A stretch of DNA of 64,000 nt from Lactiplantibacillus pingfangensis (lineage in GTDB: Bacteria > Bacillota > Bacilli > Lactobacillales > Lactobacillaceae): contig NZ_BJDG01000011.1 in assembly GCF_005404945.1 (NCBI RefSeq), positions 1 to 64,000 on the forward strand, written 5' to 3'. The translations under genes and the position numbers were made by a program. This document shows positions 9,939 to 63,192 of this stretch, in pieces (position 1 is the first letter of the stretch; every line of letters begins with the position of its first letter). Under the pieces are notes generated by a model. That model saw only the letters and a list, made by a program, of their open reading frames with translations, was not told the DNA's origin and did no database searches.

Positions 9939-10250
9939 TCTAAAGGTTGAAAGATCAAAATTGCTAGTAACTACTGCCATGTCAATGATTAGGTCATGAA
10001 GATTAGTTGCTATGACCGCTTCCAGTCGCCACTGATAACATGCGGCCGTGGGACCGGATCAAGCCTGAGAAACGTCTTGGCCCTCGCCTGGAACCCTTGC
10101 ACAAATCGCAAATGTCCCAGACCGTCCGTGGCGTAACGCCGGCAAGAAGCATGCCGACCCAACGCCACCTTTGCGACCGATGGGATCAGCGTCGACGGCC
10201 AGCTAATTTGGAGGTGCCTATATGATCCTTTTGATCTTTCAACCTTCAGA
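9939..10250. mobile_element. 312 bp MITE-like unit with 22 bp terminal inverted repeats
   Basis: The ends 9939-9960 and 10229-10250 are inverted repeats matching at 21 of 22 positions (left end starts TCTAAAGGTTGAAAGATC). Immediately outside, TGGTGA occurs on both sides (9933-9938 and 10251-10256), a likely target duplication. Inside lies repeat copy A of the structured family and no credible transposase gene, so it would be non-autonomous. A 12-base piece of the same terminal sequence, GAAGGTTGAAAG, recurs at about 14591-14602. Confidence 0.7.
10015..10208 (+). repeat. Structured intergenic repeat, copy A
   Basis: GC-rich element beginning GCTTCC and ending CCAGCTA. It has an outer stem pairing about 10030-10050 with about 10173-10195. 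Hairpin P2 pairs around CAAG (10060-10063) and CTTG (10076-10079) with a CCTGAGAAACGT loop. Hairpin P4 is GTGGCGT (10128-10134) with ACGCCAC (10162-10168). It is clearly homologous to copies at 14278 and 14735 (reverse) and more distantly to 63011 and 41741. The ORFs that cross it in both directions are by-products of GC content and are not annotated. Confidence 0.85.
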
Positions 10251-10281
10251 TGGTGATTCATGAAAATGGGCTGAAGCGACG

Positions 10282-10317
10282 AAAAAAAACACCAGCACAA
10301 TTGTCTGTGCCAGTGTC
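10282..10317 (-). terminator. Terminator of the NAD(P)-binding protein gene
   Basis: The hairpin (arms about 10290-10300 and 10305-10315, two internal mismatches) is followed on the minus strand by eight T's. It lies about 50 bases after the stop at 10367. Confidence 0.75.
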
Positions 10318-10366
10318 CGATTTAAAATGATGAGTGTTGCCAGTCAGCCAAACCCAATTAACTTAA

Positions 10367-11014
10367 TTATTGATTGGCAACCGTAAAACGTTCGTTGTGA
10401 TGCTTGGGTTGTTCAATTTCGTCCAAGACGGCTGCGGCCATGGTTCCGGAGTTGGTGACCGATGAGCCTTCAGCAGTTGCTAATAACTTGTCGGTCCCTA
10501 GCATGGCAGGAACTGCCGGGCCAGCATGAAAGTCAGCGGCAGGTGAAATCCCAACCCAGTTGACATTCGTCACAGTTTGCAAAAACTGTAATTCACTCAG
10601 TTGATTTTGGGGAATCGCCACAAAAGCGGCTGCTTCAGGCGATTTTTCAATGTCGTGGACAAATAAGTGGTTGTCATCACCAGTTTTGAGACTGCCAGCG
10701 CCTAAAATAAAGACGAGGCGTGGTTGCGTGCTGTCACGCAGTTCAGCGACTAGCTTAGTAGCCAAATCGACATGCAAGTAGGCCTTTGTGGGTGGTGTCG
10801 CCATCGCGTCAATCACGATGTCAAAGTGAGCTAACTCTGATTGGGTTAAGCTAAAAGCATCTTTGGCCAAGGTTTTTAAATGGGCATTTGGGGTTAGTTG
10901 CGCCAATTTTTCTGCGGAACGTCCCAAGGCAGTGACTTCGTGCCCGCGTGACAATGCGGTGGTCGTGAGTGCTGAGCCGGCCATGCCGGTGGCACCAATA
11001 ATCAATAATTTCAT
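10367..11014 (-). CDS. NAD(P)-binding Rossmann-fold protein (NmrA/atypical SDR type)
   Basis: The 215-residue protein starts with the dinucleotide-binding motif IIGATGMAGSALTTTAL (about 4-20). It continues as a single Rossmann domain of the atypical short-chain dehydrogenase kind, with FILGAGSLKTGDD near 105 and the end segment TNSGTMAAAVLDE near 190. Such proteins are NAD(P)H-binding sensors or reductases; no classical YxxxK active site is obvious. It stands alone on the minus strand with a GGGAG ribosome site, and its terminator separates it from the MITE-like unit. The substrate is unknown. Confidence 0.8.
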   Translation of the reverse strand: MKLLIIGATGMAGSALTTTALSRGHEVTALGRSAEKLAQLTPNAHLKTLAKDAFSLTQSELAHFDIVIDAMATPPTKAYLHVDLATKLVAELRDSTQPRLVFILGAGSLKTGDDNHLFVHDIEKSPEAAAFVAIPQNQLSELQFLQTVTNVNWVGISPAADFHAGPAVPAMLGTDKLLATAEGSSVTNSGTMAAAVLDEIEQPKHHNERFTVANQ

Positions 11015-11140
11015 TTATTCCAACTCCCTATCTAATTTAACTTATTAATTGTAAGCCGTTGATCAGTATAAATGACCTAGTTTAATTTGGCTAATAATTC
11101 GCTTTCCATATAGAATTGTTAGGCTTTCACCGCACAATCA

Positions 11141-11149
11141 TGGTATGAT
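11141..11149 (+). promoter_or_regulatory. Extended -10 promoter of trmL
   Basis: TGGTATGAT, identical to the element before rlmA, lies about 93 bases before the TTG start of trmL. This leaves a moderately long leader. Confidence 0.45.
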
Positions 11150-11241
11150 AACTAGGATAATTTGCGCGACTAGACCGCGATTAATTGGACAGCATTATCC
11201 AGCTTAAACTGCTAAAAACTTAAACAAAAAGGAAGATTATT

Positions 11242-11754
11242 TTGACGAATCATATTGCCTTATTTGAACCATTAATGCCCGCAAACACCGGGAATATTGC
11301 CCGGACTTGTGCTGGGACTGATACTGCACTTCATCTCATTGAACCGTTGGGCTTTAAAATTGATGATAAACATTTAAAGCGGGCCGGACTAGACTATTGG
11401 GATAGTGTGGACATCACGACTCATGCTGATTTACAAGACTTTTTGGCTAGTATTCCAGATTTAGCTAATCTTTACTTGGTCTCAAAGTTCGCCGATCACG
11501 ATTATTCGGATGTTGATTACAGTGACACGACTAAAGATCATTACTTCTTGTTCGGAAAAGAGACCACCGGATTGCCTGAGCCGTTTATGCGGCAATATCC
11601 TGAAAAAGCGATTCGAATTCCACAAGATGATTCCCATATTCGGGCGTTGAATTTGTCGAATTCGGCCGCAATTGTGATTTATGAAGCCTTACGCCAACAA
11701 AACTTTTTAAGTTTGGAACGCTCACATCATTATGAAAATGATAAATTAAAATAA
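11242..11754 (+). CDS. trmL: tRNA (cytidine(34)-2'-O)-methyltransferase
   Basis: The 170-residue SPOUT-class enzyme methylates the 2'-OH of the wobble base of leucine tRNAs, using SAM bound in a trefoil knot. All three family motifs are present: the N-terminal PANTGNIARTC, the central FGKETTGLPE (around 110) and the C-terminal IRALNLSNSAAIVIYEAL. Length is typical of TrmL (about 155-170). The start is TTG at 11242, supported by AAAAGGAAG 8 bases upstream. It is a single gene with its own promoter and terminator. Confidence 0.93.
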   Translation: MTNHIALFEPLMPANTGNIARTCAGTDTALHLIEPLGFKIDDKHLKRAGLDYWDSVDITTHADLQDFLASIPDLANLYLVSKFADHDYSDVDYSDTTKDHYFLFGKETTGLPEPFMRQYPEKAIRIPQDDSHIRALNLSNSAAIVIYEALRQQNFLSLERSHHYENDKLK

Positions 11755-11768
11755 CCTGGTGCCAGCCA

Positions 11769-11814
11769 GACGTACGTTAACGGCTCAGCGAGCTTTGGTT
11801 AGCGTGCGTTTTTA
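11769..11814 (+). terminator. Terminator of trmL
   Basis: A 12 bp stem with several G-T pairs (about 11770-11781 and 11798-11809) is followed by T's, directly after the trmL stop. Confidence 0.7.
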
Positions 11815-11852
11815 GTTTGATTTGGGAAAATATTCATTAACGAACATCGGTT

Positions 11853-11861
11853 TGGTACAAT
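11853..11861 (+). promoter_or_regulatory. Extended -10 promoter of ftsK
   Basis: TGG directly precedes TACAAT (11856-11861), with TTCATT 17 bp upstream as a weak -35. The GTG start is at 11898. Confidence 0.5.
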
Positions 11862-11897
11862 AGAACTAAGTTAAAAAATGGGAAGGACGATAGCAGC

Positions 11898-14243
11898 GTG
11901 GCGCGAAAGCAACGAACAACTAAAAAGCGACGCACGACGGGGACAAAGCGGCCGACCAAAGCCGCAACGCAACGTCAAATGACCGGGAATATTATTGGCT
12001 TGGTTGGGGTGCTGATTACTGGTTTTGCACTTTTTAAATTAGGATTAGTGGGGATCTTCTTTGCTGAATGCTTCCGCTTGGTTGCGGGGGATGCCTACGA
12101 GATTTTAGCGGTACTGACCTTAGTTTTGATGGGCTATGTGATGATTTTTGGCAAATTGCCTAAGATTGGTTGGCGCTGGTGGACTGGCGGCAATCTAGTC
12201 CTTTATAGTTACTTGTTATTATTAGAAATTCCAATGTTTAATCGTCTAAATCGACATACCGATTTTTGGTCGATTACTTGGCATTTGATTAAAAATGATT
12301 TTGCGACGGGTGGGGTTTCAGTTAATCTTGGTGGTGGCTTAGCCGGTGCGGCTGGTTACAGCTTGACTTACCCCTTGATCGCTAATCTGGGTACCGTGTT
12401 AGTGGCGGTGGTTTTAATTATCGCCGGAATTTTTATTGCCTTTAAGTTACCTTTTCGCCAGACGATGCTCGTGATTCGTCACGGGTTAGTGGTTGCCGGT
12501 GAACAAGTTAAATCAGCTTATGACGAAGTTGCCCATTATGTTCGTGTTCAGGTGGCGCGACGACGTGCTCAGCGTCAAGTTCGGGCGAATCAGCAAAAAT
12601 CAGCGGCTTCTGAAGCACCAGTACCGGAATCGGCAGCGGCAACGACTGCGCCAACCAGCGCGGCGGCACCAAGCCGGCCGACTAGTTCTACATCGCCAGT
12701 AAAAATTGTCGTGGCAAGTGACCAAGACACGCAGGCCCCAGTACCGACAAAACCTGCTGAAACCGAGCCGTTGCAAGGGACAGAGACGGTTGATGATTCC
12801 GATTATCAGCTGCCAACCTCTGAGTTGCTAACGAAGATACCGAAGACTGATCAGAGTGCTGAGTATGCCACCATTGAAAGCAACTCGAAAAAGTTGAAGA
12901 CAACGCTGGACAGTTTCGGAGTCAAGGTGGAAGTGAAAAATGTCAGTCTTGGCCCGTCGGTGACAAAATATGAACTGCATCCGGCCGTGGGGGTAAAAGT
13001 TAGCAAGGTGGTTAATCTTGCGGATGATCTGGCCCTCGCATTGGCGGCAAAGGATTTACGAATTGAGGCGCCAATTCCTGGAAAGTCCTTAATTGGGATT
13101 GAAGTGCCGAACAAGCAAATTTCAACGGTTTCGTTCCGAGATATTGTCGAAGCACAACCTGCTCATCCGACTAAGCCGTTACAAGTGCCGTTAGGGCGAG
13201 ACGTTTCAGGTAACTTGGTGACTGCTGATCTCTCAAAAATGCCGCATTTATTAATTGCCGGTTCAACTGGGAGTGGGAAGTCGGTGGCCATTAATGTGAT
13301 GATCACGGGCTTGTTGATGAATACGAAACCAAATCAAGTCAAATTTATGTTGATTGATCCGAAAAAAGTCGAATTAGGTGTTTATAATGGTATTCCGCAT
13401 CTATTAACGCCGGTCGTGACAGAACCGAAAAAGGCTGCTCGGGCCTTGCACAAGGTTGTGGCTGAGATGGAGCGACGTTACGAACTATTTGCCGATTCTA
13501 AACAACGTAATATGCAAGGATACAATCAATTTATTCGCCAACAAAACGTGGCGGATGGACAAAATCGGCCGGTATTACCATACATTGTCGTGATTGTGGA
13601 TGAATTAGCAGATTTGATGATGGTGACCTCAAGTGAGGTTGAAGATGCCATTATTCGCTTGGGACAAATGGCCCGTGCGGCTGGGATTCATATGATTTTG
13701 GCCACGCAACGACCTTCCGTTGATGTCATCACCGGATTGATTAAAGCGAACGTGCCGTCACGAATGGCTTTCGCGGTGTCAAGTGGGACCGATTCACGAA
13801 CAATCATTGACAGCAATGGGGCCGAAAAGTTGCTTGGACGCGGGGACATGCTCTATCAACCGATGGGGATGAATAAGCCGTTACGTGTTCAAGGCGCCTA
13901 CATTTCTGACCATGATGTTGAAGAAGTGGTGAACTTTATCAAGCAACAGCAAACGGCGGACTACGACGAAAGCATGCTCGTTAAAGATGATGAGTCGACG
14001 GACGGCGAAGATCCGCGTGATGGTGAAGATGAGTACTATGCGGATGCGGTTGAATTTGTGACGGAACAGCAATCAGCGAGTGTGTCAATGTTGCAACGCC
14101 GTTTCCGGATTGGTTATAATCGCGCTGCACGAATTGTGGATGAGATGGAAGAACGCGGCGTGGTTGGACCATCTGAGGGGAGCAAGGCCCGTAAGGTTTA
14201 TCGGCAACCAAAACCAGATGAGACGCCAACTTCGGATGCCTAA
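11898..14243 (+). CDS. ftsK: DNA translocase FtsK/SpoIIIE
   Basis: The 781-residue septal DNA pump moves chromosome ends out of the closing septum. It has a basic N-terminus, four membrane segments (about 25-190), and a low-complexity Ala/Pro/Ser/Thr linker (about 230-295). The RecA-like motor follows, with Walker A GSTGSGKS near residue 456 and Walker [14 protein letters not shown] near 565. A winged-helix gamma domain lies at the C-terminus (about 710-770) and reads polar DNA motifs. Size matches SpoIIIE/SftA-type proteins with membrane segments. The GTG start has GGAAGGA 10 bases upstream. No plausible terminator follows directly; repeat copy B begins 35 bases after the stop. Confidence 0.96.
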
Positions 14244-14277
14244 GCGAACAATAGATAAAAGACAGTCGCATCGTTAT

Positions 14278-14468
14278 GCCTGCTTCCGGTTGGGACTGAT
14301 AACATGCGGTCGTGGGACCGGTCCAAGCCAAAGAACGTCTTGGACCTCGCCCGGAACCCTTGCAAAAAATCGCAAGTGTCCCGGACCGTCCGTGGGGTAA
14401 CGTCGGCAAAAACCAGCCGATGTAACGCCACCATCACGACCGATGTTATCAGTCCCAACCTGCAGCTA
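14278..14468 (+). repeat. Structured intergenic repeat, copy B
   Basis: The outer stem has 18 perfect base pairs (14288-14305 with 14443-14460) and continues to 14314/14435 with one bulge. P2 is GGTCCAAG (14320-14327) with CTTGGACC (14339-14346) around a CCAAAGAACGT loop. P3 is CTTGC with GCAAG (about 14359-14375). P4 is GTGGGGT (14392-14398) with ACGCCAC (14425-14431). It starts GCTTCCGG and ends CCTGCAGCTA. It lies just downstream of ftsK and may replace or act as its transcript end. Confidence 0.88.
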
Positions 14469-14734
14469 TTAAGCTTAGTCAAGCCAGTCAGAAACGGTGT
14501 GCCGTGTCGAAGCTTCAGATCGCAGTTTGACTGGGAATAGCACAACGATTCTGCCTGATGGCTTGCTCACCTCGAATCTAGTTTAAAATTGAAGGTTGAA
14601 AGGTGAATAGTGGCTATTATTCACAGACAGTCGATGAAAATAGCAAGAAAGTTCAAAACATTGTCAACTGGCACCATCTATTTAAGACTCAAATCAACTG
14701 TTTTTAAGTCTTTTATCTTGATAACCGCTAACTT
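14469..14734. other. Spacer between two opposed repeat copies
   Basis: No gene is supported here. It holds a 12-base match to the terminal repeat of the 9939-10250 unit (14591-14602) directly followed by a small hairpin, GTGAATA (14603-14609) with TATTCAC (14618-14624). It may be a relic of an inserted unit. Confidence 0.4.
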
Positions 14735-14920
14735 AGCTGGAGGGCGGCACTGATTGCATCGGGCGTGAATGTCCCGTTTGAGCGGCGTTTCTTGCCGGTC
14801 TTACGGGACGGACGGCCCGGGATAGTTGCGGTTTTTGCAACCATTCCGGGCGAAGGCCAAGACCGTTCCTCAGGCTTGGCCTGGTCCCTCGCCCGCATGT
14901 AATCAGCGACGCCCGGAAGC
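14735..14920 (-). repeat. Structured intergenic repeat, copy C (reverse orientation)
   Basis: Read on the minus strand it starts GCTTCCGG at 14920 and ends CCAGCTAA near 14735. P2 is GGCCAAG with CTTGGCC (14855-14861 and 14875-14881) around a CCTGAGGAACGGT loop. P4 is GTCCCGT with ACGGGAC (14771-14777 and 14803-14809), against GTGGCGT/ACGCCAC in copy A, so pairing is kept while bases change. It points toward copy B from the other side of the convergent gap. Confidence 0.86.
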
Positions 14921-15000
14921 GACAACATTGACCTCTTTTGTCACTAATGTACTGGTATAACTGCATTTATCAATGGTTTTCGTCTTTAAACTGCTGCTTC

Positions 15001-15049
15001 AAAACAAAAAAACTCCGGAGATTAATTTCTCCGAAGTTTTTTTGTTTTG
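15001..15049 (-). terminator. Terminator after the DUF4044 gene
   Basis: A long stem with long A and T runs (arms about 15001-15020 and 15027-15047, one mismatch in the GC core) lies 7 bases after the minus-strand stop at 15056. It could work in both directions. Confidence 0.85.
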
Positions 15050-15055
15050 AGTTGA

Positions 15056-15217
15056 TTAGCCAAAACTGAGCAACCCTAAACCAGATAACGCGGTTAAGAC
15101 TAGTGAGCCGACCATGGAAATGATCATGACCCACACAATGACCATGGTAATTTTTTGAAACGTCGATTTCTTTTTCATTAGGTTAATTTGCACCACACTT
15201 TTCAGTAATTCTTTCAT
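15056..15217 (-). CDS. DUF4044-like small membrane protein
   Basis: A 53-codon reading frame encodes a short protein with a basic, polar start and one hydrophobic helix (about residues 23-50, rich in Val, Ile, Met and Leu). The segment KKKSTFQKITMVIVW and the Gly-rich end LSGLGLLSFG resemble the DUF4044 family of tiny single-pass proteins in lactic acid bacteria. The true start may be the inner ATG at 15178, giving 40 residues, which is closer to the family length. Neither ATG has a strong ribosome site. It begins 37 bases after corA and ends at a good terminator, so it is probably the second gene of the corA transcript. Function unknown. Confidence 0.65.
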   Translation of the reverse strand: MKELLKSVVQINLMKKKSTFQKITMVIVWVMIISMVGSLVLTALSGLGLLSFG

Positions 15218-15253
15218 AGTTTAACGTGGATTCATAGTTTTTTCAATTGCCAA

Positions 15254-16210
15254 TTAGAAATAGTCGTGATTTCGTAAGTATTCCATACTAATGACACACA
15301 AAATAATGGTCCCAAGCATGATCCAACTAAAGGCATGAACAACGCTTGCACCAGGTAATCGGACGTTCATCCCGTAGATTCCACCGATAATCGTTGGAAT
15401 GGTTAAGATGATGGTCAGTGAAGTGAGCACTTTCATCACATCATTTAAATTATTCGAAATTACGGCACTCACGAGTTGGCTATACTGTTGCAAAATCTGA
15501 TTGGTCGTATTAGTCATGTCGGCGGCCTGTTGGGTTTCAATCATAATATCTGCCGTCAGTGCTTGATGGTGACTGCCGTTGAAGTGGGTCGCAGAATTTT
15601 CAACAGCGGTGAGAATCGGCGCGTTTTGGGTTAGTGCGGCCTTGAAGCGAATCAATGATTTTTGATAAGCCATGATCCGAAAGATTTCTTCATTGCGCGT
15701 TGCGCGGGTGAGGTGACGTTCCAACACGGTTGTTTTATGATTGATGGCTTTTAGTGCCGTCACGTAAGCGTGCGAAATATACCACATGATTGCGAGTACA
15801 AAATTTTCATGATTATCTAGGCTGAGTCGCGATGACGCCGGGTCCATGATAAAATCTTGAATGAAACTAGCGGGGTAATTGCTAACAGTCAACACGGCGT
15901 TAGGCGTCAAAATCAACGCAAATGGATAAACTTGATACTCCAAGTAGCCGAGATCACTCGTCGTTAACTTTGGAAATTGCATAATGATCAATGCGGCGTG
16001 ATCGGTGGTCTGTTGATCCAATTGTTCAGTCCGTGAAATTTCTGCATCGTCAAGGACTGCTGTGAGATAATCCTTAGGAAAGTTAAATTCACGAACTAAT
16101 TGATTGATTTCATCGATGGTTGGCCGTTCAATATTGATCCAGTATGGTTGGTCGTGGGGCTGACCAATGGCAAGCTGGCCCTCAGAATTGGTCGTGAAAT
16201 ATTGCAACAT
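15254..16210 (-). CDS. corA: CorA family divalent cation (Mg2+) transporter
   Basis: The 318-residue protein has a large cytoplasmic N-terminal domain and two C-terminal membrane helices. The signature GMN motif (YGMNVRLPG) sits in the loop after the first helix. CorA proteins form pentameric channels, mainly for magnesium. The ATG at 16210 is chosen because GGAGG lies 8 bases upstream; the alternative TTG at 16225 falls within that ribosome site. It is transcribed with the small DUF4044-like gene downstream and away from the DUF3397 gene. The 162-base divergent gap has no riboswitch-like fold that I could recognise. Confidence 0.92.
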   Translation of the reverse strand: MLQYFTTNSEGQLAIGQPHDQPYWINIERPTIDEINQLVREFNFPKDYLTAVLDDAEISRTEQLDQQTTDHAALIIMQFPKLTTSDLGYLEYQVYPFALILTPNAVLTVSNYPASFIQDFIMDPASSRLSLDNHENFVLAIMWYISHAYVTALKAINHKTTVLERHLTRATRNEEIFRIMAYQKSLIRFKAALTQNAPILTAVENSATHFNGSHHQALTADIMIETQQAADMTNTTNQILQQYSQLVSAVISNNLNDVMKVLTSLTIILTIPTIIGGIYGMNVRLPGASVVHAFSWIMLGTIILCVISMEYLRNHDYF

Positions 16211-16372
16211 ATCAGGCGCCTCCAAGTGTGACTTGGGTTCTATTATAGGACTGGCGGTGATGATTGAAAAGTCTTCAGAGAATCCTTATAATAAAAACGA
16301 CCCGTATCCGGTTTTTGCCGGCAATGTGGGTGGCTCAAGTGAGTCGTAAAAAAAGACTGAGAGGAAAGCGTC

Positions 16373-16738
16373 ATGAACGACCTGTTCACTAATTGGCTGG
16401 GACAAATCAGTTTAATCGCGGCGGTTTCCGTCGTCGTTTTAGGCCTAAAACGTGTGTTGCGGCGCTTTTGGCCGACACATTTATTGCTGATTGATTTTTG
16501 GCCACCATTTTTGATTGTTTTTACCCATTTCTTAACCTTACAGACAACTGATAGTTCAATCGTGCCCTATGAAGTCATCTCACTGATGATCTTAGGCATT
16601 GGATTGACAATTTTGTCGGTGATTCAGCAAGGTGAAATCCTATACGGTCGCTTTTTTAAGCTGTTTTGGAGAGTAACTGACCTGCTAACTATTGTGGTGT
16701 ATTTGTTGGCACTGGTTATTTATTTGATCACAGCCTAG
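16373..16738 (+). CDS. DUF3397 family membrane protein
   Basis: The 121-residue protein has four predicted membrane helices (about 10-25, 38-55, 65-85 and 100-119) and few charged residues, matching the DUF3397 family. In lactobacilli this family commonly sits directly before mraZ, as here, but no function is known. The ATG at 16373 has an AGAGGAAAG site. A strong terminator after it separates it from the mraZ promoter. Confidence 0.85.
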   Translation: MNDLFTNWLGQISLIAAVSVVVLGLKRVLRRFWPTHLLLIDFWPPFLIVFTHFLTLQTTDSSIVPYEVISLMILGIGLTILSVIQQGEILYGRFFKLFWRVTDLLTIVVYLLALVIYLITA

Positions 16739-16766
16739 CGTTACTAAAGGAAAACAAGCCCCACTA

Positions 16767-16806
16767 GTCCCCACCTAACGAATTAGCGTTAGGTGGGGAC
16801 TTTTTT
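16767..16806 (+). terminator. Terminator before mraZ
   Basis: A perfect 14 bp GC-rich stem (16767-16780 with 16787-16800) is followed by six T's. Confidence 0.92.
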
Positions 16807-16844
16807 GACATTTTGTTAACATTTTCGAAAAGTCACAAATCATT

Positions 16845-16874
16845 GTGGTAGGAAGTGGGGGGGTGTGGTAGACT
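16845..16874 (+). promoter_or_regulatory. MraZ operator: three GTGG direct repeats 10 bp apart
   Basis: GTGG occurs at 16845, 16855 and 16865, exactly one helical turn apart, within 60 bases of the mraZ start. MraZ is known to bind such TGGG/GTGG direct repeats with 10 bp periodicity upstream of its own operon. A possible extended -10, TGG followed by TAGACT (16869-16874), overlaps the third repeat, which would suit autorepression. Confidence 0.72.
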
Positions 16875-16906
16875 TAGAATTGTTTAATGAAAGGGGTTGA
16901 TTGACT

Positions 16907-17344
16907 GTGGCATCCAAGATGTTTTTTGGTGAGTTTGAACACGCGCTGGATGCTAAAGGTCGATTAATCATCCCCGCAAAATTTCGAGAATTACTTGGGA
17001 CGACGTTTATGATTACCCGCGGGATGGATGGCTGTATTTTTGGTTATCCGGCTGAACGTTGGGCGACCTTGCAAGATCAGCTGGATCATTTGTCGATTAC
17101 AAAAAAAGATGCGCGTAACTTTACGCGGTTCTTCTATGGCGCAGCGGCTGAATGTGAGTTAGACAAGCAAGGCCGAATCATGATCCCCGCAAAGTTACGG
17201 CAATTTGCTGATTTAGAAAAACAATGTGTGATTGTTGGCGTTTCTGATCGTTTTGAAATTTGGAGTGCCAGCAAGTGGGACACATTGGAAGCAAGTACTG
17301 CCGAAGACTTTGATGATTTAGCAGAGAATTTAATTGATTTTTAA
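16907..17344 (+). CDS. mraZ: Transcriptional regulator MraZ
   Basis: First gene of the division and cell wall cluster. The protein has two AbrB-like swapped-hairpin repeats, each with a DxKGR-type motif: [15 protein letters not shown] near the N-terminus and [15 protein letters not shown] about 70 residues later. It forms a ring and binds direct repeats upstream of its own gene. The start is uncertain: GTG at 16907 suits the AAAGGGG site (10 bases), but the family usually begins at the MFFGEFEH segment (ATG 16919). A TTG at 16901 is too close to the site. It is transcribed with rsmH. Confidence 0.95.
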
Positions 17345-17375
17345 AATAGTGTGACTGACAAGGAGGCAAAATTGC

Positions 17376-18329: not shown

Positions 18330-18358
18330 GTCCTAAAAAATTTAAGGAGTGAAGAACC

Positions 18359-20877: not shown

Positions 20878-20907
20878 GTAATTAAGAAGTAGAATGGAGA
20901 ATTTGTT

Positions 20908-30393: not shown

Positions 30394-30439
30394 GTCGACT
30401 AGAATCAACGGTATAGTTAAATCTTATTAACATTTTGAG

Positions 30440-30655
30440 GAGAACAGCAAACAACTTAGTGATACGCACAGAGAGCCGGCGTTAGTGTGAACCCGGTCGT
30501 CCCTCACGAAGTTGCAGATCATCTCCGAATGTCGGCCTGAATGAAGTAAGGTCGGCCGGTTCATGACCGTTAACCATGCTATGAGAGAATCTAAACAATT
30601 CTAAAATTGGGTGGTACCACGATAACTTCGTCCCTTGCCGGGCGGAGTTTTTTTG
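30440..30655 (+). promoter_or_regulatory. T-box leader (isoleucine) of ileS
   Basis: The leader shows stem I with AGAGAGCCGG and GTGTGAACCCGGT elements, a specifier region with ATC codons (30518-30523, isoleucine), and the T-box sequence GGGTGGTACCACG (30609-30621). Uncharged tRNA-Ile pairing to GGTGG would favour the antiterminator over the terminator at 30624-30654. It is a riboswitch-like control of ileS. Confidence 0.93.
30624..30654 (+). terminator. Regulated terminator of the ileS T-box
   Basis: A stem pairing AACTTCGTCCC (from 30624) with GGGCGGAGTT is followed by seven T's. It competes with the antiterminator formed by the T-box sequence just upstream. Confidence 0.85.
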
Positions 30656-41740: not shown

Positions 41741-41900
41741 CTAGCCGTGAGGGGGCTTCGTTTGGGGCTCAGCCGTGGCGTTTGACTTAGCGCGGTGATT
41801 TTTCCACGGTTAGTCAAAAACCAGCTTTTGAGACCGCTCTTTGGCTCAAAACTGGTTCATGGCGTTCCAGCCCCAAACGAAGCTCCCGGTAGGCGGAAAT
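41741..41900 (-). repeat. Structured intergenic repeat, copy E (diverged, reverse orientation)
   Basis: The outer stem has 19 bp with one mismatch (41751-41769 with 41869-41887). Hairpin P2, read on the minus strand, is TTTTGAG/CTCAAAA (41845-41851 and 41826-41832) enclosing CCAAAGAGCGGT, the same loop as copies A-D although the stem bases differ. ACGCCAC is also kept near the end, as in copies A, B and D. It is shorter and more diverged than the others. It lies between the ktrA end and the promoter at 41990. Confidence 0.72.
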
Positions 41901-52944: not shown

Positions 52945-52950
52945 CACAAC

Positions 52951-53734: not shown

Positions 53735-53747
53735 AGACTTGTGATTA

Positions 53748-53761: not shown

Positions 53762-53814
53762 GACCAATGGTTAAGCCGTCGAGTCTGTACGTTCATGAAA
53801 GGGATGTGTCATTT

Positions 53815-54927: not shown

Positions 54928-54928
54928 C

Positions 54929-55906: not shown

Positions 55907-55963
55907 TTAATTTCGCGCATCGAAAACAACCAATTGTTGGTTGCAATGAAAGGAAGTTATCCA

Positions 55964-57250
55964 ATGGCTTACGAGTTTAAATTACCAGAGCTTGGCGAAG
56001 GCCTAGAAGAAGGCGAAATTGCCACTTGGCTCGTTAAACCTGGCGATCAAGTCAAGGAAGACGATTCTCTAGTTGAGATTCAAAACGATAAATCTGTTGA
56101 AGAATTACCATCACCAGTTGATGGGACAATTGTAAAAATTTTGGTACCAGAAGGTGAAACTGCCAAAATTGGTGATGTCATCGTTGAAATTGATGATGGT
56201 TCCGGTGCAAGTGCGACACCAGCTGCCGCACCGGCTGAAAATGCAACCGCTGACAAACCGGCAGCGCCTGCACCAGCAGCTACTGATGCTGCCCCAGCGA
56301 CATCCGCACCAGTTGCGCCTGCTGATCCTAACAAACGGATTTTGGCAATGCCATCTGTCCGTCAATACGCTCGCGACAAAGATATTGATATCTCGCAAGT
56401 GGCTGCGACAGGTGCCCATGGTCAGATTACGAAACAAGATATTGATAATTATACGGGTGCTCCCGCCGCAACTGGCGCACAAGCCGCCGCACCAGAAGCA
56501 GCGCCAGCGCCAACTCCTGTAAAGCCATACGTTTCGGATACTCCTGAATTGGAAACTCGTGAAAAGATGAGCCCAATTCGGAAGGCTATTTCGAAAGCCA
56601 TGGTTAACAGCAAGCATACGTCACCACACGTCACCTTATTTGATGAAGTTGAAGTGACTGCTTTGATGGACCATCGGAAGAAGTACAAGACGATTGCTGC
56701 CGATCGCGACATTCATTTAACGTTCTTGCCATACTTTGTCAAGGCCTTGGTTGCTGTCTTGCAACAATTCCCAGAATTCAACGCCTCAATTGATGACGCT
56801 AATAAGGAAATTGTCTACAAACACTATTACAACATCGGTGTCGCAACCGATACTGACCGTGGTTTGTTAGTACCAAATATCAAGCATGCTGAAGGTAAGG
56901 GCTTGTTTGCTATTGCCAAGGAAATTACTGATAACACACAAAAAGCTTACGATGGCAAATTGAAGGCTAATGAAATGAGTGGCGCTTCAATTACGATCAG
57001 TAACATTGGGTCAATTGGTGGCGGCTGGTTTACACCAGTTATCAATCAACCTGAAGTTGCCATCTTAGGTGTTGGTCGGATTGGTAAGGAACCATATGTC
57101 AACGAAGATGGCGAAATCGTCGTTGGTAAGATGCAAAAATTGTCCTTGAGTTTTGATCACCGTTTGATTGACGGTGCGACTGCCCAAAAAGCAATGAACT
57201 TATTGAAACAATTGTTGCATGATCCAGAATTACTTTTGATGGAAGGATGA
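55964..57250 (+). CDS. pdhC: Pyruvate dehydrogenase E2, dihydrolipoyl acetyltransferase
   Basis: The 428-residue core protein has one lipoyl domain (about 1-80, lipoylated Lys in QNDKSVEE near 43) and an Ala/Pro-rich linker (about 85-125). A peripheral subunit-binding domain follows (about 130-165, [18 protein letters not shown]), then a second linker and the catalytic domain ending with the [10 protein letters not shown] motif near 400. Only one lipoyl domain is present, as in many Firmicutes. Confidence 0.96.
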
Positions 57251-57257
57251 GGTCAGA

Positions 57258-58670
57258 ATGGTTGTAGGAGATTTTGCTGAAGAACGCGATACAATGATCA
57301 TTGGTGCGGGTCCTGGTGGCTATGTTGCTGCAATTCGGGCCGCTGAACTTGGTCAAAAAGTGACTGTGATTGAAAAAGAATACGTTGGTGGGGTTTGCTT
57401 GAACGTGGGCTGTATTCCATCAAAAGCCTTGATTAGTGCCGGTCACCGGCTCCAAGAAGTCAAAGATAGTAAAATCTTTGGGATCAAGAACATTCAAGAC
57501 CCAGTCTTAGATTTTAAAACGACACAAGATTGGAAAGATCATCAAGTCGTTGACCGCTTAACTGGCGGGGTTAAAATGTTATTAAAGAAGCATAAAGTTG
57601 AAGTCGTTGAAGGGGAGGCCTACATGCACGATAATCACACGTTACGTGTGATGAATGGCGACCATACCGGCCAAACTTATAAATTCAAACATTTGATTAT
57701 TGCCTCAGGTTCTCGTCCCGTTGAAATTCCTGGCTTTAAGTTTAATGGTCGCGTGGTTGACTCGACCGGTGGCTTGAATTTACCAGAAGTCCCAAAGGAA
57801 TTAGTTGTTATCGGTGGCGGTTACATCGGCTCTGAATTAGCTGGTGCCTATGCTAACCTCGGCGCCCATGTGACGATTCTTGAAGGTACACCACAAATCT
57901 TGCCAAACTTTGAAAAAGACATGGTCAAATTGGTCTTGAAGAGTTTCAAAGATAAAGGTGTGACGATCGTAACCAATGCCATGGCTAAAAACTCTGAACA
58001 AGATGATAGCGGTGTCACGGTGACTTATGAAGTCGACGGTAAAGAAGAATCAGTCCGTGCAGATTATTGTATGGTTACCGTTGGTCGGCGGCCAAATACC
58101 GATGACATGGGTCTGGAATACACGGATGTCAAATTGACAGACCGTGGCTTGATTGAAGTTGATCAACAAGGTCGGACTGCTGCACAAGATATCTTTGCAA
58201 TCGGTGATATTGTTGCTGGACCAGCATTGGCACACAAGGCCTTCGCAGAAGGTAAAGTTGCGGCTGGTGCCATCAGCGGCAAAAAGACGGCTAATGATTA
58301 TGTCTCAGTTCCAGCGGTCTGCTTTACAGATCCTGAATTGGCAACGGTTGGTATGACGAAGGCTGAGGCCGAAAAGACTGGCTTGAGTGTAACCGCATCG
58401 AAGTTCCCATTTGCCGGGAATGGTCGTGCGATTTCATTGAACTCGATGGAAGGCTTCTTCCGTTTGGTTTCAACGAAGGATGAAGGCACGATTGTCGGGG
58501 CTCAAATTGCTGGTCCTGGTGCCAGTGACTTGATTTCTGAATTGAGTGTTGCCGTTAATGGCAGCTTGAACGTTGAAGATTTAGCTTTGACGATTCATCC
58601 ACATCCAACCTTGGGCGAAGTTGTCCAAGAAGCTGCTGATGTTGCGATGGGTTATCCAACGCATATCTAA
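57258..58670 (+). CDS. pdhD: Dihydrolipoyl dehydrogenase (E3)
   Basis: The 470-residue flavoprotein reoxidises lipoamide with NAD+. FAD loop [15 protein letters not shown] is near 14, the redox disulfide [15 protein letters not shown] near 45, the NAD loop [16 protein letters not shown] near 184, and the C-terminal HPHPTLGE holds the active-site His near 450. GGATGAGG precedes the ATG 7 bases after pdhC. Confidence 0.97.
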
Positions 58671-58697
58671 GCGTGATTAATTAAAGAGTATCTTCAG

Positions 58698-58728
58698 AAG
58701 TTTGAGGCTTAACGGTCTCAAACTTTTG
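58698..58728 (+). terminator. Terminator of pdhABCD
   Basis: AAGTTTGAG (58698-58706) pairs with CTCAAACTT (58717-58725), followed by T's. Downstream, a perfect 9 bp inverted repeat (58734-58742 with 58761-58769, 18-base loop) has no T-run and no known role. Confidence 0.8.
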
Positions 58729-58849
58729 TTTTGCACATGGTCAGTCACACTAGTCGGGACGACCATGTGTCTACATAAACCGGAGACTTTCATCAGCCAA
58801 TTGCCGAGGAAAACGGTCAGCAAAAACTCAAGATTTACTTAAACTTTAC

Positions 58850-58877
58850 TTGAATAAGTTGACAGCTCGGGTACAAT
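58850..58877 (+). promoter_or_regulatory. Promoter of the LDH-like gene
   Basis: TTGAAT (58850-58855) and TACAAT (58872-58877) lie 16 bp apart. A TTGACA at 58859 is better as a hexamer but too close to the -10. Confidence 0.5.
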
Positions 58878-58903
58878 TATTAGCGAAAGTGGGGAGAAAT
58901 TTC

Positions 58904-59842
58904 ATGAACAATACAGTTATTATTCGTGGCTTATTTGAATTCGTACAACAACTCATTTTAATTGCAATGGCGCAAGATTTGCCATTGAACTTGATCGTTG
59001 CCACTGAGGCCGACGAAACACCGCGTTATCAATCATTGATCACTGCGAGTTCTGCCTGTCGTCATTTCACCATCCAGACGCCAGCAAAACCCGATTATTC
59101 TCAAGCCGATACTCTGATTATCGGTAATTTAGTGCCGTTAGCGGCTGACAGAGACGTTGCCGCCGATTTGCGGGCCACCTTACCACTGTTTCGGCAGTTT
59201 ATTAATGCCGCGATGGCAGCCGGCTTTAACGGCAAATTAGTCTTGACTGGCAGCAATGATGCCGTGTTAAGCGTTTTAGCTGCCCGTTTTAGCGGTGTCG
59301 ATCATCAACGCGTGCTCGGATTGGGGACTTTGCCACAAAGTCGCCTGCTTGAGCGACTCTTACAAGACCAATTGAGTGTCGGTGCCAATGATGTGCACGC
59401 CTTTGTCGTTGGTACGGCGCGTGAACATTTGATTTCGTGGAGTCGCTCTTATATCGGTCCGGCACCGGTTTTGACCTATTTGGCGAATCAAGATATTAGT
59501 TTTGGTGCCAATGAAATGGGCGCAGATCAAGAACGGATTGACGAACCCGCAATCGTTACCAATCAAACGTTGAGTGTGTTAGCATTAGTACAAGTCTTAC
59601 GGGCCTTTTATGACCAAGCGCCATTTATTGGAACGGTGACTAATGTGCAAGCGACGACCGAAGATCAGTTGGTCGGATTATCTTCGCCAGTCTTGATTAG
59701 TGCCAATGGGATCAAGCGCTTGGCTGACATGGTTTTATCGGATGAGGAACAAAAAGAATACGCGGAAATTGCTGGTGAGGTTCGCCACGATTTAGATCGC
59801 GTTGAAGCAGGGGAGTTTGAGCAAAATGACGATGAACAGGCC
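58904..59842 (+). CDS. Degenerate lactate/malate dehydrogenase-like protein
   Basis: The 313-residue protein has LDH length and a recognisable LDH core (FSGVDHQRVLGLGTLPQSR and NDVHAFVVGTAREH, near 125-185). However, the N-terminal glycine loop GxGxxG is absent (IIRGLFEFVQQ instead). The GEHGD motif with the catalytic His is replaced by GTAREH, and the LD before the substrate Arg is missing. It is therefore probably not an active NAD-dependent LDH. An acidic tail ends the protein. It starts a transcript with the UPF0223 and inositol monophosphatase family genes. ATG at 58904 follows GGGGAGA. Regulatory or structural role is a guess. Confidence 0.78.
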
Positions 59843-60116
59843 TGAAAATTATCAATATCCACTGAATGACGCGTGGACCACGGCTGAAATTATTACGGTC
59901 AGCAGCTTTTATGAAAAAATTGAGGCGGCCAATGATAGCAGTGTGCCAACGGCCGACTTATTAGCGGCCTATCGTGACTTCAAAACGATTGTCACCGCAA
60001 AATCGGAAGAGAAACAACTTGGCCGGGCGTTTGAAGCTGCCTCTGGCTTAAGCATTTATAAAACGATGCAGGCGGCGCAAACAACTAACAAACAACGTTT
60101 TCAATATCGAAGCTAG
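59826..60116 (+). CDS. UPF0223 family protein
   Basis: The 96-residue protein matches UPF0223 (YktA type) of Firmicutes, with YQYPLNDAWTTAEIITVSSF at the start and an all-helical remainder. Structure-solved relatives exist but no function is set. The ATG at 59826 lies 8 bases after GGGGAG and overlaps the end of the LDH-like gene, so the two are coupled. Confidence 0.88.
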   Translation: MTMNRPENYQYPLNDAWTTAEIITVSSFYEKIEAANDSSVPTADLLAAYRDFKTIVTAKSEEKQLGRAFEAASGLSIYKTMQAAQTTNKQRFQYRS

Positions 60117-60902
60117 GTGAAGATTGTGGGGAACAAAGCATTACAACAATTAAATGACGCCGTACAAGTGGTCCTCCAGCGGGCACGACAACAAGTCTTG
60201 GCGCAAATGGGCACCCAATTAACGGTGGCTGAAAAAACGAGCCGCAAAGACTTAGTTACCAATGTTGATAAGAGCAACGAGCATTTTTTAGTTCATGAAC
60301 TTAGACGGTTGGACTCGCAAGCCAAGATTCTCGGTGAAGAGGGTTTAGGTGATACGGTGACGTCAATGAGCGGGCATGTCTGGATCGTTGACCCAATTGA
60401 CGGCACGATGAATTTCGTGCATCAGCGTAATCATTTTGCCATGATGATTGGGTACTACATTGACGGTGTGCCAACGCTTGGTTACATTTATGATGTGATG
60501 GCTGATCGGCTATTTGCCGGCGGTCCTGACTTAGGGGTGACGGTTAATGGTAACCCATTACCGGCACCAGCGGATCTTGATCTGACCGATGGGTTGTTTG
60601 GGGCCAGCGGGCCACTGTTGATTCACGACCGTTATCAGATGCAAGCCATTGCACATGCGAGTTTAGGCCCGCGCATCATGGGCAGCGCTGGGATTCAAAT
60701 CAGTCAAGTCTTGGCTGGTGAACTGGTCGGTTACTTGTCTTATTTACGCCCATGGGATTTTGCCGCCGGGCGAGTGTTGGCTGAAACGTTAGGGTTGGCC
60801 GTTTCACAAGTTGACGGCGAGCCCGTAAATATGTTATCATCTGGTGCTGTACTAATAGCGACTAAAAGTGCGCAACGTGCTATTTTGACAATCGTCAGAT
60901 GA
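60117..60902 (+). CDS. Inositol monophosphatase family protein
   Basis: The 261-residue Mg2+-dependent phosphatase carries the family motifs: GEEG near 79, the metal site VDPIDGTMNFVH (near 91-102) and the C-terminal WDFAAGRVL near 219. Relatives act on inositol phosphate, PAP or fructose bisphosphate; which applies is unclear. In Firmicutes UPF0223 and this gene are commonly adjacent (yktA-yktC in Bacillus). Start is uncertain: GTG at 60117 directly follows the previous stop, while GTG at 60126 has AGGTGA just before it. Confidence 0.9.
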   Translation: MKIVGNKALQQLNDAVQVVLQRARQQVLAQMGTQLTVAEKTSRKDLVTNVDKSNEHFLVHELRRLDSQAKILGEEGLGDTVTSMSGHVWIVDPIDGTMNFVHQRNHFAMMIGYYIDGVPTLGYIYDVMADRLFAGGPDLGVTVNGNPLPAPADLDLTDGLFGASGPLLIHDRYQMQAIAHASLGPRIMGSAGIQISQVLAGELVGYLSYLRPWDFAAGRVLAETLGLAVSQVDGEPVNMLSSGAVLIATKSAQRAILTIVR

Positions 60903-60910
60903 ACGGTGTG

Positions 60911-60938
60911 ACTGTGACCCATCCGTCACAGTTTTTTT
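60911..60938 (+). terminator. Terminator of the LDH-like operon
   Basis: A perfect 8 bp stem (60911-60918 with 60925-60932) is followed by seven T's counting the last base of the arm. Confidence 0.88.
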
Positions 60939-60999
60939 ATGCCAATTGATGAAAGCCGATGAAAACGGCGTTACGCGTCAGTCAAGGCGCACCTGTCAC

Positions 61000-61028
61000 T
61001 TGATAGTAATGCCAGATTGTATTAATAT
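61000..61028 (+). promoter_or_regulatory. Promoter of typA
   Basis: TTGATA (61000-61005) and TAATAT (61023-61028) are separated by 17 bp, about 64 bases before the TTG start. Confidence 0.6.
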
Positions 61029-61091
61029 ATGTAAGATTTCTGCTATCAATTGGATAGTTAGAATTTTTGAAGGATGAAAGGAAGATCAATT

Positions 61092-62930
61092 TTGAAATTT
61101 AGAGATGATATCCGCAACATTGCCATTATTGCCCACGTTGACCACGGTAAAACAACCTTAGTTAACGAAATGCTTAAACAATCGGATACCTTAGATGAAC
61201 ACGTCCAGATTGATGATCGGGCGATGGACACTAATGCCATTGAAAAGGAACGCGGTATCACGATCCTTTCTAAGAATACGGCCGTACGTTATGGCGACAA
61301 ACAAATTAACATTTTGGATACACCAGGACATGCTGACTTCGGTGGCGAAGTTGAACGAATCATGCGCATGGTCGATGGGGTCTTGTTAGTTGTTGATGCT
61401 TTTGAAGGAACGATGCCCCAAACCCGTTTCGTTTTGAAAAAGGCTTTGGAACAACATTTGACACCAATCGTTGTGATCAACAAAATTGACCGCCCAGGTG
61501 CTCGTCCTGAAGAAGTCGTTGACGAAGTCTTGGACCTATTCATTGAATTAGGTGCGGATGAATCTCAATTAGACTTCCCAGTTGTCTATGTATCAGCTTT
61601 GAACGGGACTTCAAGTTACGAATCAGACCCTGCTAAGCAAGAACATACGATGAAACCTGTCTTTGATACGATTATCAAGACGATTCCAGCCCCAATTGAC
61701 AACTCTGACGAATCATTACAATTCCAAGTTGCTTTACTTGATTATAATGATTACGTTGGTCGTGTTGGGATTGGCCGGGTCTTCCGTGGAACAATCAAAG
61801 TTGGTGACAGTGTTGCTGTCATGAAGCTTGATGGTAGCAAGAAGAACTTCCGGGTCACTAAGTTGTTTGGGTTCTTCGGTTTACAACGTTTGGAAATCAA
61901 TGAAGCCCATGCCGGTGACTTAGTTGCCGTTTCTGGGATGGAAGATATTAACGTTGGTGAAACGGTTGCTGATTCAAGTAACCCAGAAGCTTTGCCAATC
62001 TTACGGATTGACGAACCAACCTTACAAATGACCTTTGGGACGAACTCATCACCATTTGCCGGTAAAGAAGGTAAATTTGTGACTGCGCGCCAATTGGAAT
62101 TACGTTTGAAGTCAGAATTGGAAACCGATGTGTCATTACGGGTTGAAGATACTGACGAACCCGGATCATGGGTTGTTTCTGGCCGTGGGGAATTGCATTT
62201 GTCAATCTTAATCGAAACGTTACGGCGTGAAGGTTACGAATTACAAGCATCTCGTCCAGAAGTTATTTACCGCGACGTTGAAGGTGTTCGGAGCGAACCA
62301 TTTGAATCTGTTCAGATTGATACGCCTGACGAATATACCGGTGCAATTATTGATACCTTGTCACAACGTAAAGGTGAAATGAAGAACATGGAGAGTACTG
62401 GGAATGGTCAGACTCGTTTGACTTTCTTGGCACCATCACGTGGGTTGATCGGTTATTCGACTGAATTCTTATCATTAACGCGTGGTTATGGGATTATGAA
62501 CCATACCTATGCTAAGTATGCGCCAGTGATCAAGAACTGGAACCCTGGTCGTCGTAACGGTGCTTTAGTTTCAATTAACCAAGGTAAGACAACGACTTAT
62601 GCAACTATGGGTATCGAAGAACGTGGGACGATCTTTGTCGACCCAGGTACCGATGTGTATGAAGGGATGATTGTTGGTCAAAATAGCCGTGAAAATGATA
62701 TTTCAGTTAATATCACTAAAGGTAAGAACATGACCAACGTTCGTTCATCAAACAAGGATTTGACTGCGACAATCAAGACGCCAACCCATTTGACGCTTGA
62801 AGAATCATTGGAATTCTTGAATAGTGATGAATATTGTGAAATTACGCCAGAACACGTCCGTTTACGTAAGACGATTCTGAATACGAGTTCACGTGAAAAA
62901 GAAGCTAAGAAACGCAAGATGGCTAAATAA
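61092..62930 (+). CDS. typA: Ribosome-associated GTPase TypA/BipA
   Basis: The 612-residue translational GTPase aids large-subunit assembly and stress or cold growth. G1 is [10 protein letters not shown] (near 14-23), G3 [11 protein letters not shown] (near 75), and G4 NKID (near 132). Beta-barrel and EF-G-like domains III and V follow, and the C-terminal BipA-specific domain ends in a Lys-rich tail. TTG at 61092 is chosen because AGGA lies about 10 bases upstream and family members begin MKFRDDIRN; an ATG at 61074 precedes the ribosome site. Confidence 0.95.
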
Positions 62931-62951
62931 GCTGCCAATCGTTTCAATGGA

Positions 62952-62985
62952 AGTACGATCTCATGATGAGATCGTGCTTTTTTTA
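62952..62985 (+). terminator. Terminator of typA
   Basis: A 13 bp stem (62952-62964 with 62966-62978, one wobble) is followed by seven T's. Confidence 0.92.
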
Positions 62986-63010
62986 GTTTGGGAGATCACT
63001 CAAATTTGTC

Positions 63011-63192
63011 CGCTTTCGGTGACGAGGCATACCATTAGCTGTGGGGGCCGGCCCCAGCCTGAGGAGCGGTCTGGGACTTCGCTTTCAAGCCTGAAAAGCA
63101 AGTCTTGAAAGACGCCCGTGGTGTAAGCGCCAAGCCCTTGCGCTAACGCCACCGATACAGCAAATGTCCTGCCTCGTCACCTGCAGCTCGAT
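63011..63192 (+). repeat. Structured intergenic repeat, copy D
   Basis: The outer stem opens with 12 perfect pairs (63018-63029 with 63170-63181) and resumes after an internal loop. P2 is CCCAG (63053-63057) with CTGGG (63071-63075) around CCTGAGGAGCGGT. P3 is CTTTCAAG with CTTGAAAG (about 63083-63110). P4 is GTGGTGT (63118-63124) with ACGCCAC (63146-63152). It ends CCTGCAGCT like copy B. It lies between the typA terminator and ftsW. Confidence 0.82.

Follow-up and report, generated by a model that had tools for sequence, protein, structure and literature searches.

A branched hairpin module, possibly acting as folded DNA, carried by small non-autonomous transposons of Lactobacillaceae

The window analysed here, a 64-kb stretch of the Lactiplantibacillus pingfangensis assembly GCF_005404945.1 (contig NZ_BJDG01000011.1, positions 1-64,000 of the forward strand), contains five copies of a structured module, A to E, which a first-pass annotation had picked out from the sequence (Table 1). 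All five are real, as covariance model R2, built from 55 copies with D excluded, recovers each of them (5/5; copy D at E 1.3e-11), while the best further match of this model in the window has an E-value of only 0.099. Fold z-scores lie between -4.8 and -10.8 for copies B-E, and at -1.75 for copy A. The common plan proposed for the five copies needs correction in that copy D is without the middle hairpin, which is deleted relative to the model, and in that the outer stem of copy A has decayed. P4, which had been thought limited to copies A-D, is present in copy E too, where it is formed by GTGGTGTAAGCGC and GCGCTAACGCCAC. Copy A lies within a MITE that has terminal inverted repeats and target duplicates, and its site is empty in the four relatives analysed, in which the interval measures 46, 72, 72 and 130 nt, compared to about 430 in the window.

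Table 1 Copies of the module in the window and their associated parts
Feature	Position	Strand	Basis
Left target-site duplicate TGGTGAT, copy A	9933..9939	.	
Left terminal inverted repeat CTAAAGGTTGAAAGATCAAAA of MITE enclosing copy A	9940..9960	+	
Module A; P2, P3 and P4 intact, outer stem decayed	10017..10204	+	covariance model, fold
Right terminal inverted repeat of MITE enclosing copy A	10229..10249	-	
Right target-site duplicate TGGTGAT, copy A; 1 base past repeat	10251..10257	.	
Module B, type I	14281..14467	+	covariance model; RNA fold z -10.8
Probable remnant of type II (partner) half, element of copy B	14468..14588	.	by eye against complete elements
Terminal-repeat-like sequence, 2 mismatches; probable end of copy C's element	14589..14609	+	
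Module C, type I; convergent with B	14735..14921	-	covariance model, fold
Module D; P3-less form (no middle hairpin)	about 41750..41888	-	covariance model, fold
Module E; short-P3 form, different flanks	63011..63188	+	covariance model, fold

The module is about 185 nt long, and its 62 pairs form an outer stem and three hairpins. Rather than the five members first counted, the L. pingfangensis genome yields at least 150 matches. Out of 1158 first-look candidates, 150 were scored with the covariance model, and every one of these passed the threshold of E 0.01; the lowest-scoring among them, at about 30 bits, may be fragments. The module was found in 108 of 397 sampled Lactobacillaceae genomes, representing 11 of 40 genera, and by covariance model it was absent from all 397 sampled genomes of the class outside this family. 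Among 20 congeners, 8 have no copy by model R1, and four have no match by either model. A search of the whole window against Rfam gave no family that overlaps any copy at its own threshold, and the stretch of copies B and C gave no match up to E 5; a known Rfam family is consequently rejected. A plasmid-borne element was rejected given the lack of a match in PLSDB for copy A, as was a catalogued phage element given the lack of a match for copy B. No published description of the module was found in the literature covered, which was mostly openly accessible, and a term search of PMC10969869 found no lactobacilli.

The suggestion that helices are kept while their bases change is well borne out. 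Double changes occur at 61 of 62 pairs, and 92.4% of 3271 cells are paired, versus 30-42% in controls that shift each partner by 1-3 columns, in an alignment that was fitted to the covariance model and so leans towards structure. On a copy tree examined by parsimony (117 L. pingfangensis rows of short sequence, with one copy entered twice), double and single changes stand at 75:31 on internal branches and at 76:266 on tips (p 3e-19). A tree built from unpaired columns gives 83:29 and 134:277 respectively, and slid-partner controls on internal branches give 6:43 and 3:47. Double changes therefore dominate internal branches and pair-breaking single changes the tips, such that pairing seems to be needed for propagation, with single copies decaying. 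Parsimony thus supports a need for base pairing in the copies that give rise to new copies, and selection on the folded form, as the first-pass annotation had surmised, is supported by both the double changes and the contrast between internal and tip branches. At matching loci, the modules show no consistent excess of identity over their flanks (98.9 v 85.2, 92.0 v 80.4, 95.0 v 88.3, 80.3 v 84.2 and 87.0 v 83.3%), which argues against a function at each site.

A potential alternative explanation for the covariation is that template switching or gene conversion within the hairpin keeps the arms complementary, with no selection on the fold. Block changes in both arms under an unchanged helix, seen by eye between the matching loci L173 and L171, are consistent with such a process, as are the frequent double changes on tips (76/342) and the small number of wobble types. 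However, homogenisation should erase the single mismatches that are conserved across genera inside long helices, namely a C.T mismatch in P2 (119/119 L. pingfangensis rows, and 54/63 in the wide set) and an A.A mismatch in P4 (115/120 and 61/66 respectively), and an enrichment of double changes on internal branches over tips is not expected from a mutational process. We consider this explanation improbable.

Of the two options raised initially, that of a non-coding RNA gains no support from the types of pair observed, as far as the read strand is concerned. The read strand has no excess of G.T over A.C, with counts of 69 v 90 among 3271 cells and of 93 v 123 among 4091 cells of a second alignment, unlike the RNase P control, for which the counts are 263 v 11 of 2426 on the right strand (24:1) and 142 v 74 on the wrong strand (1.9:1). 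Since a pair set taken from the read strand biases the comparison of G.T with A.C, the counts were repeated for the complement, and again for those pairs that both strands are predicted to form. For the latter, read-strand G.T:A.C types present in at least 2 copies number 9:18, 10:17 and 12:18 (17:1 for RNase P), with counter-counts of 13 v 12 types (L. pingfangensis rows, at least 3 copies) and 2 v 1 (A5, at least 5 copies). For the widest set, the fold obtained from a MAFFT alignment was poor, at 21 pairs, and its 57 G.T v 37 A.C run contrary to a DNA reading, and the model-based alignment was relied on instead. The helices consist largely of Watson-Crick pairs, are interrupted by conserved single mismatches and lack RNA-like wobble when the read strand is considered. 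From this we infer that it is DNA that folds, as a hairpin or cruciform, and on these pair types we favour folded DNA over RNA.

Nevertheless, the transposon could carry the module as a structured RNA, which may be read from the other strand than the one considered at first. The complement folds more stably than the read strand in 52/55, 65/72 and 117/122 rows, which weakens the case for an RNA on the latter and favours one from the former. In the complement's own consensus fold, G.U outnumbers A.C by 136 v 53 (A5), 144 v 47 (A6) and 317 v 65 (L. pingfangensis rows, where part of the difference comes from one nearly fixed position, read-strand A.C in 103/118 rows); this excess of 2.6-4.9:1 is above that of RNase P on the wrong strand and below that on the right strand. 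The conserved mismatches would be G.A and U.U on the complement, both of which are stable in RNA. Furthermore, genes read into the element from its 5' side in 100/121 copies, making read-through transcripts likely, though of the other strand than the complement. However, at pairs predicted on both strands the G.U:A.C ratio of the complement is about 2:1 (18:9, 17:10 and 18:12), as opposed to 17:1 for RNase P. A similar skew is found among nearly neutral tip mutations, where G.T:A.C is 83:108, resembling the internal 8:14, which points to mutation bias, and, unlike in RNase P, the unpaired positions of one strand are rich in C and those of the other in G. An RNA is accordingly the weaker reading when set against DNA, and we regard it as unlikely, if still deserving some weight.

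In the L. pingfangensis genome and in that of a congener (G020), modules are carried by MITEs, frequently two together in convergent orientation, and these MITEs have the ends of an IS4-family element. The complete element, which is about 540 bp at several L. pingfangensis loci, consists in both genomes of terminal inverted repeats (CTAAAGGTTGAAAG...) enclosing two modules, type I on the top strand followed after 22-26 nt by type II on the bottom strand. Complete elements aligned from 14 loci have ends common to most, and the type II half has been lost in many L. pingfangensis copies. Both terminal repeats are present in 52 of 122 copies of this genome (with at most 4 mismatches at each end), and target repeats of at least 5 nt flank 22 of the 52, reaching 7-8 nt in 14, counts made without a permutation control. 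The L. pingfangensis genome also contains an IS4-type element with MITE-like ends (L275:497-1956; NCBIfam NF049925), the transposase gene of which is in two pieces, while the IS4 element of G020 (L382) has an uninterrupted transposase frame, ends that match the MITEs, and a duplicated ATAGGAG. Elements in G020 are largely near-identical, and four have exact target duplicates of at least 8 nt (by eye). The MITEs of these two genomes thus share terminal repeats with an IS4-family element and possess target-site duplications.

Linkage to one transposase family, raised at the outset as a mark of a mobile element, is supported for these MITEs, but modules also occur in elements that have different ends or none that could be recognised. 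Among 23 stretches with modules (15 from other genera and 8 from congeners), the ends of one are IS4-like (L154:5523) and of another partly so (L065), whereas the others show chance-level repeats. Homology stops at the module edge in 9 copies from Levilactobacillus. A set of 43 copies (25 at Levilactobacillus and other loci, and 18 in further genomes of the same family) showed no target duplicates. Candidate empty sites for five copies in other genomes are too diverged to read. Of the 13 genomes of the genus that carry modules by model R1, only four (G000, G008, G017, G020) gave matches to the IS4 transposase, as did one without modules (G019), in a search that used one of the two pieces of the L. 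pingfangensis gene as query and in drafts that may miss IS copies. Moreover, the L. pingfangensis IS4 element has no module, as 0/150 of the matches in this genome fall within it, indicating that the module is not needed by the IS4 transposase as such, and the idea that the hairpins are a transposase recognition site finds no support here.

Compared to other IS4-family MITEs, with which they share high copy number, 7-8 nt duplicates and terminal inverted repeats that match an IS4-family element, the elements described here differ in carrying one or two large, branched, strongly covarying modules, and in that the module also occurs between other or unrecognised ends. BOX and RUP elements have a modular build. 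Both are dispersed intergenic repeats of Streptococcus pneumoniae, a Lactobacillales species (passages of PMC2267715, in which Lac-1 is a genic repeat of L. johnsonii); the likeness is one of description, and the module model has no match in the 397 other genomes of the class. The Rfam candidate structured RNAs of Lactobacillales, L17DE, Lacto-rpoB and Lacto-usp (sections of PMC2864571, a table of which also lists Lacto-int, known here from that listing alone), differ from the module in that it has no Rfam match and no G.U preference on the read strand.

A likeness in apparent working, though in nothing else, exists with the REP, BIME and REPIN sequences associated with RAYT (TnpA-REP), which are high-copy, intergenic, imperfect palindromes with conserved mismatches and inverted pairs (passages of PMC8266576 and PMC2817692). 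An alternating orientation is found for the module too: close pairs in G020 are convergent in 18/18 cases, and 21/25 neighbours within 700 nt form inverted pairs at the loci of the 4091-cell alignment. It might be argued from such pairs of imperfect hairpins that a Y1 (HUH) transposase, cleaving single-stranded hairpins, moves the module as a REP/BIME-like element. However, REPs, which bear a GTAG or CGTC tag, are small palindromes of 20-40 bp (part of PMC3733652) and single hairpins, whereas the module, with 62 pairs, is branched and about 185 nt long. In addition, the ends and target duplicates fit a DDE element, Y1_Tnp is missing from 6 of the 13 carriers in the genus, including G020 with its recent copies, and it is present in the four congeners where neither model matches. 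Within the limits of draft assemblies, this distribution largely refutes a Y1/RAYT mechanism in the genus, leaving it a very slight probability.

The position of the elements after genes might instead suggest usefulness to the host, for example in insulating gene ends or in terminating transcription from both directions there. Upstream and downstream genes are oriented ++ at 56, +- at 41, -- at 12 and -+ at 9 of 122 copies (one side being unknown at four), and a sense terminator lies at most 60 nt to the left of 13/32 clean L. pingfangensis elements. However, such adjacency is found for only 1/12 in G020 and so is not general, and the decay of single copies at tips, the congeners that lack a copy and the empty site of copy A in the relatives analysed all count against this idea, which we find very unlikely. 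A replication-strand bias was rejected for 62 solo copies in G020 (p 0.80, with 18+/15- in one half and 14+/15- in the other); for type I copies the counts are 7:2 and 2:4, too few to judge.

Taking the shared ends, target duplicates, recent near-identical copies and empty site together, we suggest that an IS4-family DDE transposase, from an element with matching ends, moves the MITEs in trans. Paired modules would be required in the source copies that make new copies, and single insertions would decay afterwards. As to what uses the fold, our guess would be a factor of the host or of transposition that targets hairpins, whether extruded or single-stranded, and helps the element to spread. The reading as a whole, in which a module of some 185 nt with branched hairpins spreads in small non-autonomous transposons of Lactobacillaceae, is moved by IS4 in L. 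pingfangensis and G020, and has a fold that acts as DNA, is one to which we give close to an even chance. More tentative, and in our view open to greater doubt, is the broader proposal of family-wide mobile branched DNA hairpins, in which a 62-pair fold with fixed mismatches would be read as folded DNA by a putative factor, would be selected for its own spread, and may have been adopted, as a help to their own spread, by mini-transposons of several unrelated kinds.

Covariation comparable to that observed here would normally be filed as evidence of a new RNA. The G.U and internal-versus-tip tests suggest that pairing is kept for spreading, probably as DNA, and consequently urge caution in equating covariation with RNA. 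The near-identical copies of G020, together with an IS4 element that has an uninterrupted transposase frame, provide a system for testing what a large DNA fold contributes to transposition.

The five modules in the window (copies A to E) fold individually as the first-pass annotation had described, and the two covariance models, R1 (trained on 20 copies) and R2 (trained on 55), recover all of them, including copy D, which lies outside both training sets (E 1.3e-11 with R2). The common plan of hairpins is present in all five folds, with the exception of the middle hairpin, which is missing from D, and P4 is not limited to copies A to D as had been supposed, given that E carries all three hairpins. 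The element around copy A is also matched, left end included, by elements of another sampled genome (G009), and the flank spacing of this copy is 46 nt in G009, 72 nt in G001 and G002 and 130 nt in G020 (a congener with many near-identical copies), as compared with approximately 430 nt in the window.

Coordinates of the modules, elements and other features in the window and at loci elsewhere
Feature	Location	Remarks
Window		contig C11 of the 2.9 Mb genome
Copy A	10017-10204	
Copy B	14281-14467	
Copy C	14735-14921	
Copy D	~41750-41888	
Copy E	63011-63188	
Copy A MITE	9940-10249	310 nt; target duplicates TGGTGAT; without type II half
T-box leader	30426-30638	Rfam match, ordinary
23S-methyl RNA motif	8322-8422	Rfam match, ordinary
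Inverted repeat	3469-3566	47 nt, 4-nt loop, 74% complementary; no relation to module family seen
IS4-type element	L275:497-1956	1460 bp
Module array (G010)	L083:1504-2878	three (+) and two (-) modules without P2
Module in IMG/VR contig	L145:221-402	95.7 bits
Modules at same insertion sites	L173:6245-6852	compared with L171
Complementary flanks, Levilactobacillus and other loci	L185:225-418; L224:5529-5714; L203:5955-6138	examples

A complete element is visible in most of the 14 aligned loci that possess close type I (+) and type II (-) modules, and consists of a terminal repeat (CTAAAGGTTGAAAG...), approximately 60 nt, type I, 26 nt, type II reversed, approximately 90 nt and a terminal repeat, several elements measuring 541 nt between matched repeat ends. 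Close pairs in G020 are convergent in 18 of 18 cases, with a spacing of 22 nt in 14, and in a set of 39 loci neighbours within 700 nt are convergent in 21 of 25 cases and divergent in none. The array at L083 adjoins a sequence resembling an IS3-type transposase (by eye).

Both terminal repeats (at most 4 mismatches each) were found in 52 of 122 copies from the source genome, with target repeats of at least 5 nt in 22 of these and of 7-8 nt in 14. A pattern search for the terminal repeats (at most 2 mismatches) gave 95 matches in the same genome and 0 for the reversed control, and two of the 95 bound the element at L275, which encodes an IS4-family transposase in two overlapping frames (NCBIfam NF049925, 1.8e-75 and 1.9e-45). 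A similar IS4-type element in G020 possesses a 466-aa open frame and the duplicates ATAGGAG, and the module MITEs of that genome are largely near-identical, four of them flanked, as judged by eye, by exact duplicates no shorter than 8 nt. IS4 transposase matches were found in only 5 of 21 genomes of the genus, which limits the claim of mobility. A second module family in G020 has other ends (CTAGTGYATNGTAGC..., by eye in 12 of its copies), and in nine Levilactobacillus copies homology covers the module alone; consequently, the module is common to different carriers. As far as the assemblies go, RAYT was excluded by a Y1 test for 6 of 13 carriers.

In the source genome, blastn with copy B detected at least 40 copies, complete or almost so, with identities of 89-100% (159 candidates, of which 40 were scored), and R1 at least 150 matches at E <= 2.5e-5 (150 of 1158 candidates scored, all of which matched). 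Among 60 relatives, the source genome included, R1 identified 14 carriers, 12 of them among the 20 other congeners, to which R2 adds four congeners (one by a single match). R2 places the module in 108 of 397 Lactobacillaceae genomes (again including the source) and 11 of 40 genera. Among 398 genomes of the class, of which at least two others belong to the same family, the source genome was the sole carrier. Among the matches listed, named carriers outside the genus are mostly Levilactobacillus, together with Lactobacillus sp. HBUAS51381 and uncultured Lactobacillus MAGs, and two candidate matches fall in other phyla. The single module of the one matching IMG/VR contig lies some 400 nt upstream of ORFs resembling a terminase small subunit, then a terminase large subunit and a portal protein (named by eye).

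No source-genome copies lie within genes by simple ORF calling. On the 5' side of type I, the neighbouring gene points into the module in 100 of 121 cases; on the 3' side, 65 of 119 genes share the strand of the module, and divergent contexts number only 9. Solos elsewhere lean likewise (n = 28: ++ 12, +- 7, -+ 5, -- 3, one without a downstream gene), and 14 of 25 pairs in other genomes lie between convergent genes. Across 44 copies taken from other family members' genomes, the two flanks of each copy tend to be more complementary to one another than permuted flanks (mean score 13.4 versus 9.3, sd of permuted means 0.41), more weakly so by exact words (5.60 versus 5.01, sd 0.17; 43 of the 44), while direct repeats show no excess (5.00 versus 5.09 permuted; 43 copies). 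The pattern hints at an outer stem that is longer and specific to each locus. The complementarity of single-module flanks is copy by copy, with no common flank sequence between copies, and would reflect either insertion into palindromes or creation of a palindrome on insertion.

As first annotated, the helices are kept while their bases change: across 55 copies from several genera, double changes occur at 61 of 62 pairs, and 92.4% of cells pair, versus 30-42% with slid partners. On the tree of the source genome's copies (117 rows, one copy entered twice), double Watson-Crick changes versus single breaks number 75:31 on internal branches and 76:266 at tips. The contrast is kept in a tree from unpaired columns only (83:29 internally, 134:277 at tips) and likewise holds for the multi-genus set (179:26 and 210:134); with slid partners, double changes almost disappear. 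The trees are weak, and changes were counted by parsimony. Mismatches conserved across genera (C.T in P2 and P3, A.A in P4) argue against mere homogenisation of the arms. Between L173 and L171, from two lactobacillus assemblies, inner hairpins differ blockwise on both arms, and the feet and flanks of the modules agree (by eye).

Wobble pairs bear on whether RNA or DNA is folded. On the read strand, G.T versus A.C cells number 69 versus 90 of 3271, and for the widest set 93 versus 123 of 4091, whereas the corresponding counts for RNase P RNA, drawn from 30 genomes of Lactobacillaceae, are G.U 263 versus A.C 11 of 2426. Processed like RNase P, two sets of module copies give 48 versus 77 of 2353 (A5) and 57 versus 37 of 1427 (A6, which aligns poorly that way). 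Because the pair set came from the read strand, the complement was also counted, yielding G.U:A.C of 136:53 (A5), 144:47 (A6) and 317:65 (source-genome rows); RNase P on the wrong strand gives 142:74. For pairs predicted from both strands, with types in at least two copies, read-strand ratios are 9:18, 10:17 and 12:18, against 17:1 for RNase P. The same skew is seen among tip changes (83:108), which are close to neutral, and the lean towards the complement may therefore be mutational in origin. The complement is the more stable fold in most copies, yet in A5 the gap drops from 12.45 to 4.07 kcal/mol, losing about two thirds, when conserved pairs alone are scored. With DNA parameters, conserved-pair recovery in A5 is 0.927 for the complement versus 0.856 for the read strand; with RNA parameters the advantage is little or none (A5, 0.914 versus 0.892; A6, 0.888 versus 0.889).

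Folded DNA is therefore favoured, and we consider a structured RNA, one of the possibilities raised at first pass, rather improbable. The accompanying proposal of selection on the folded form is supported by the contrast between internal branches and tips, the plain reading of which is that lineages leaving copies retain pairing and single insertions lose it, in other words selection for propagation.
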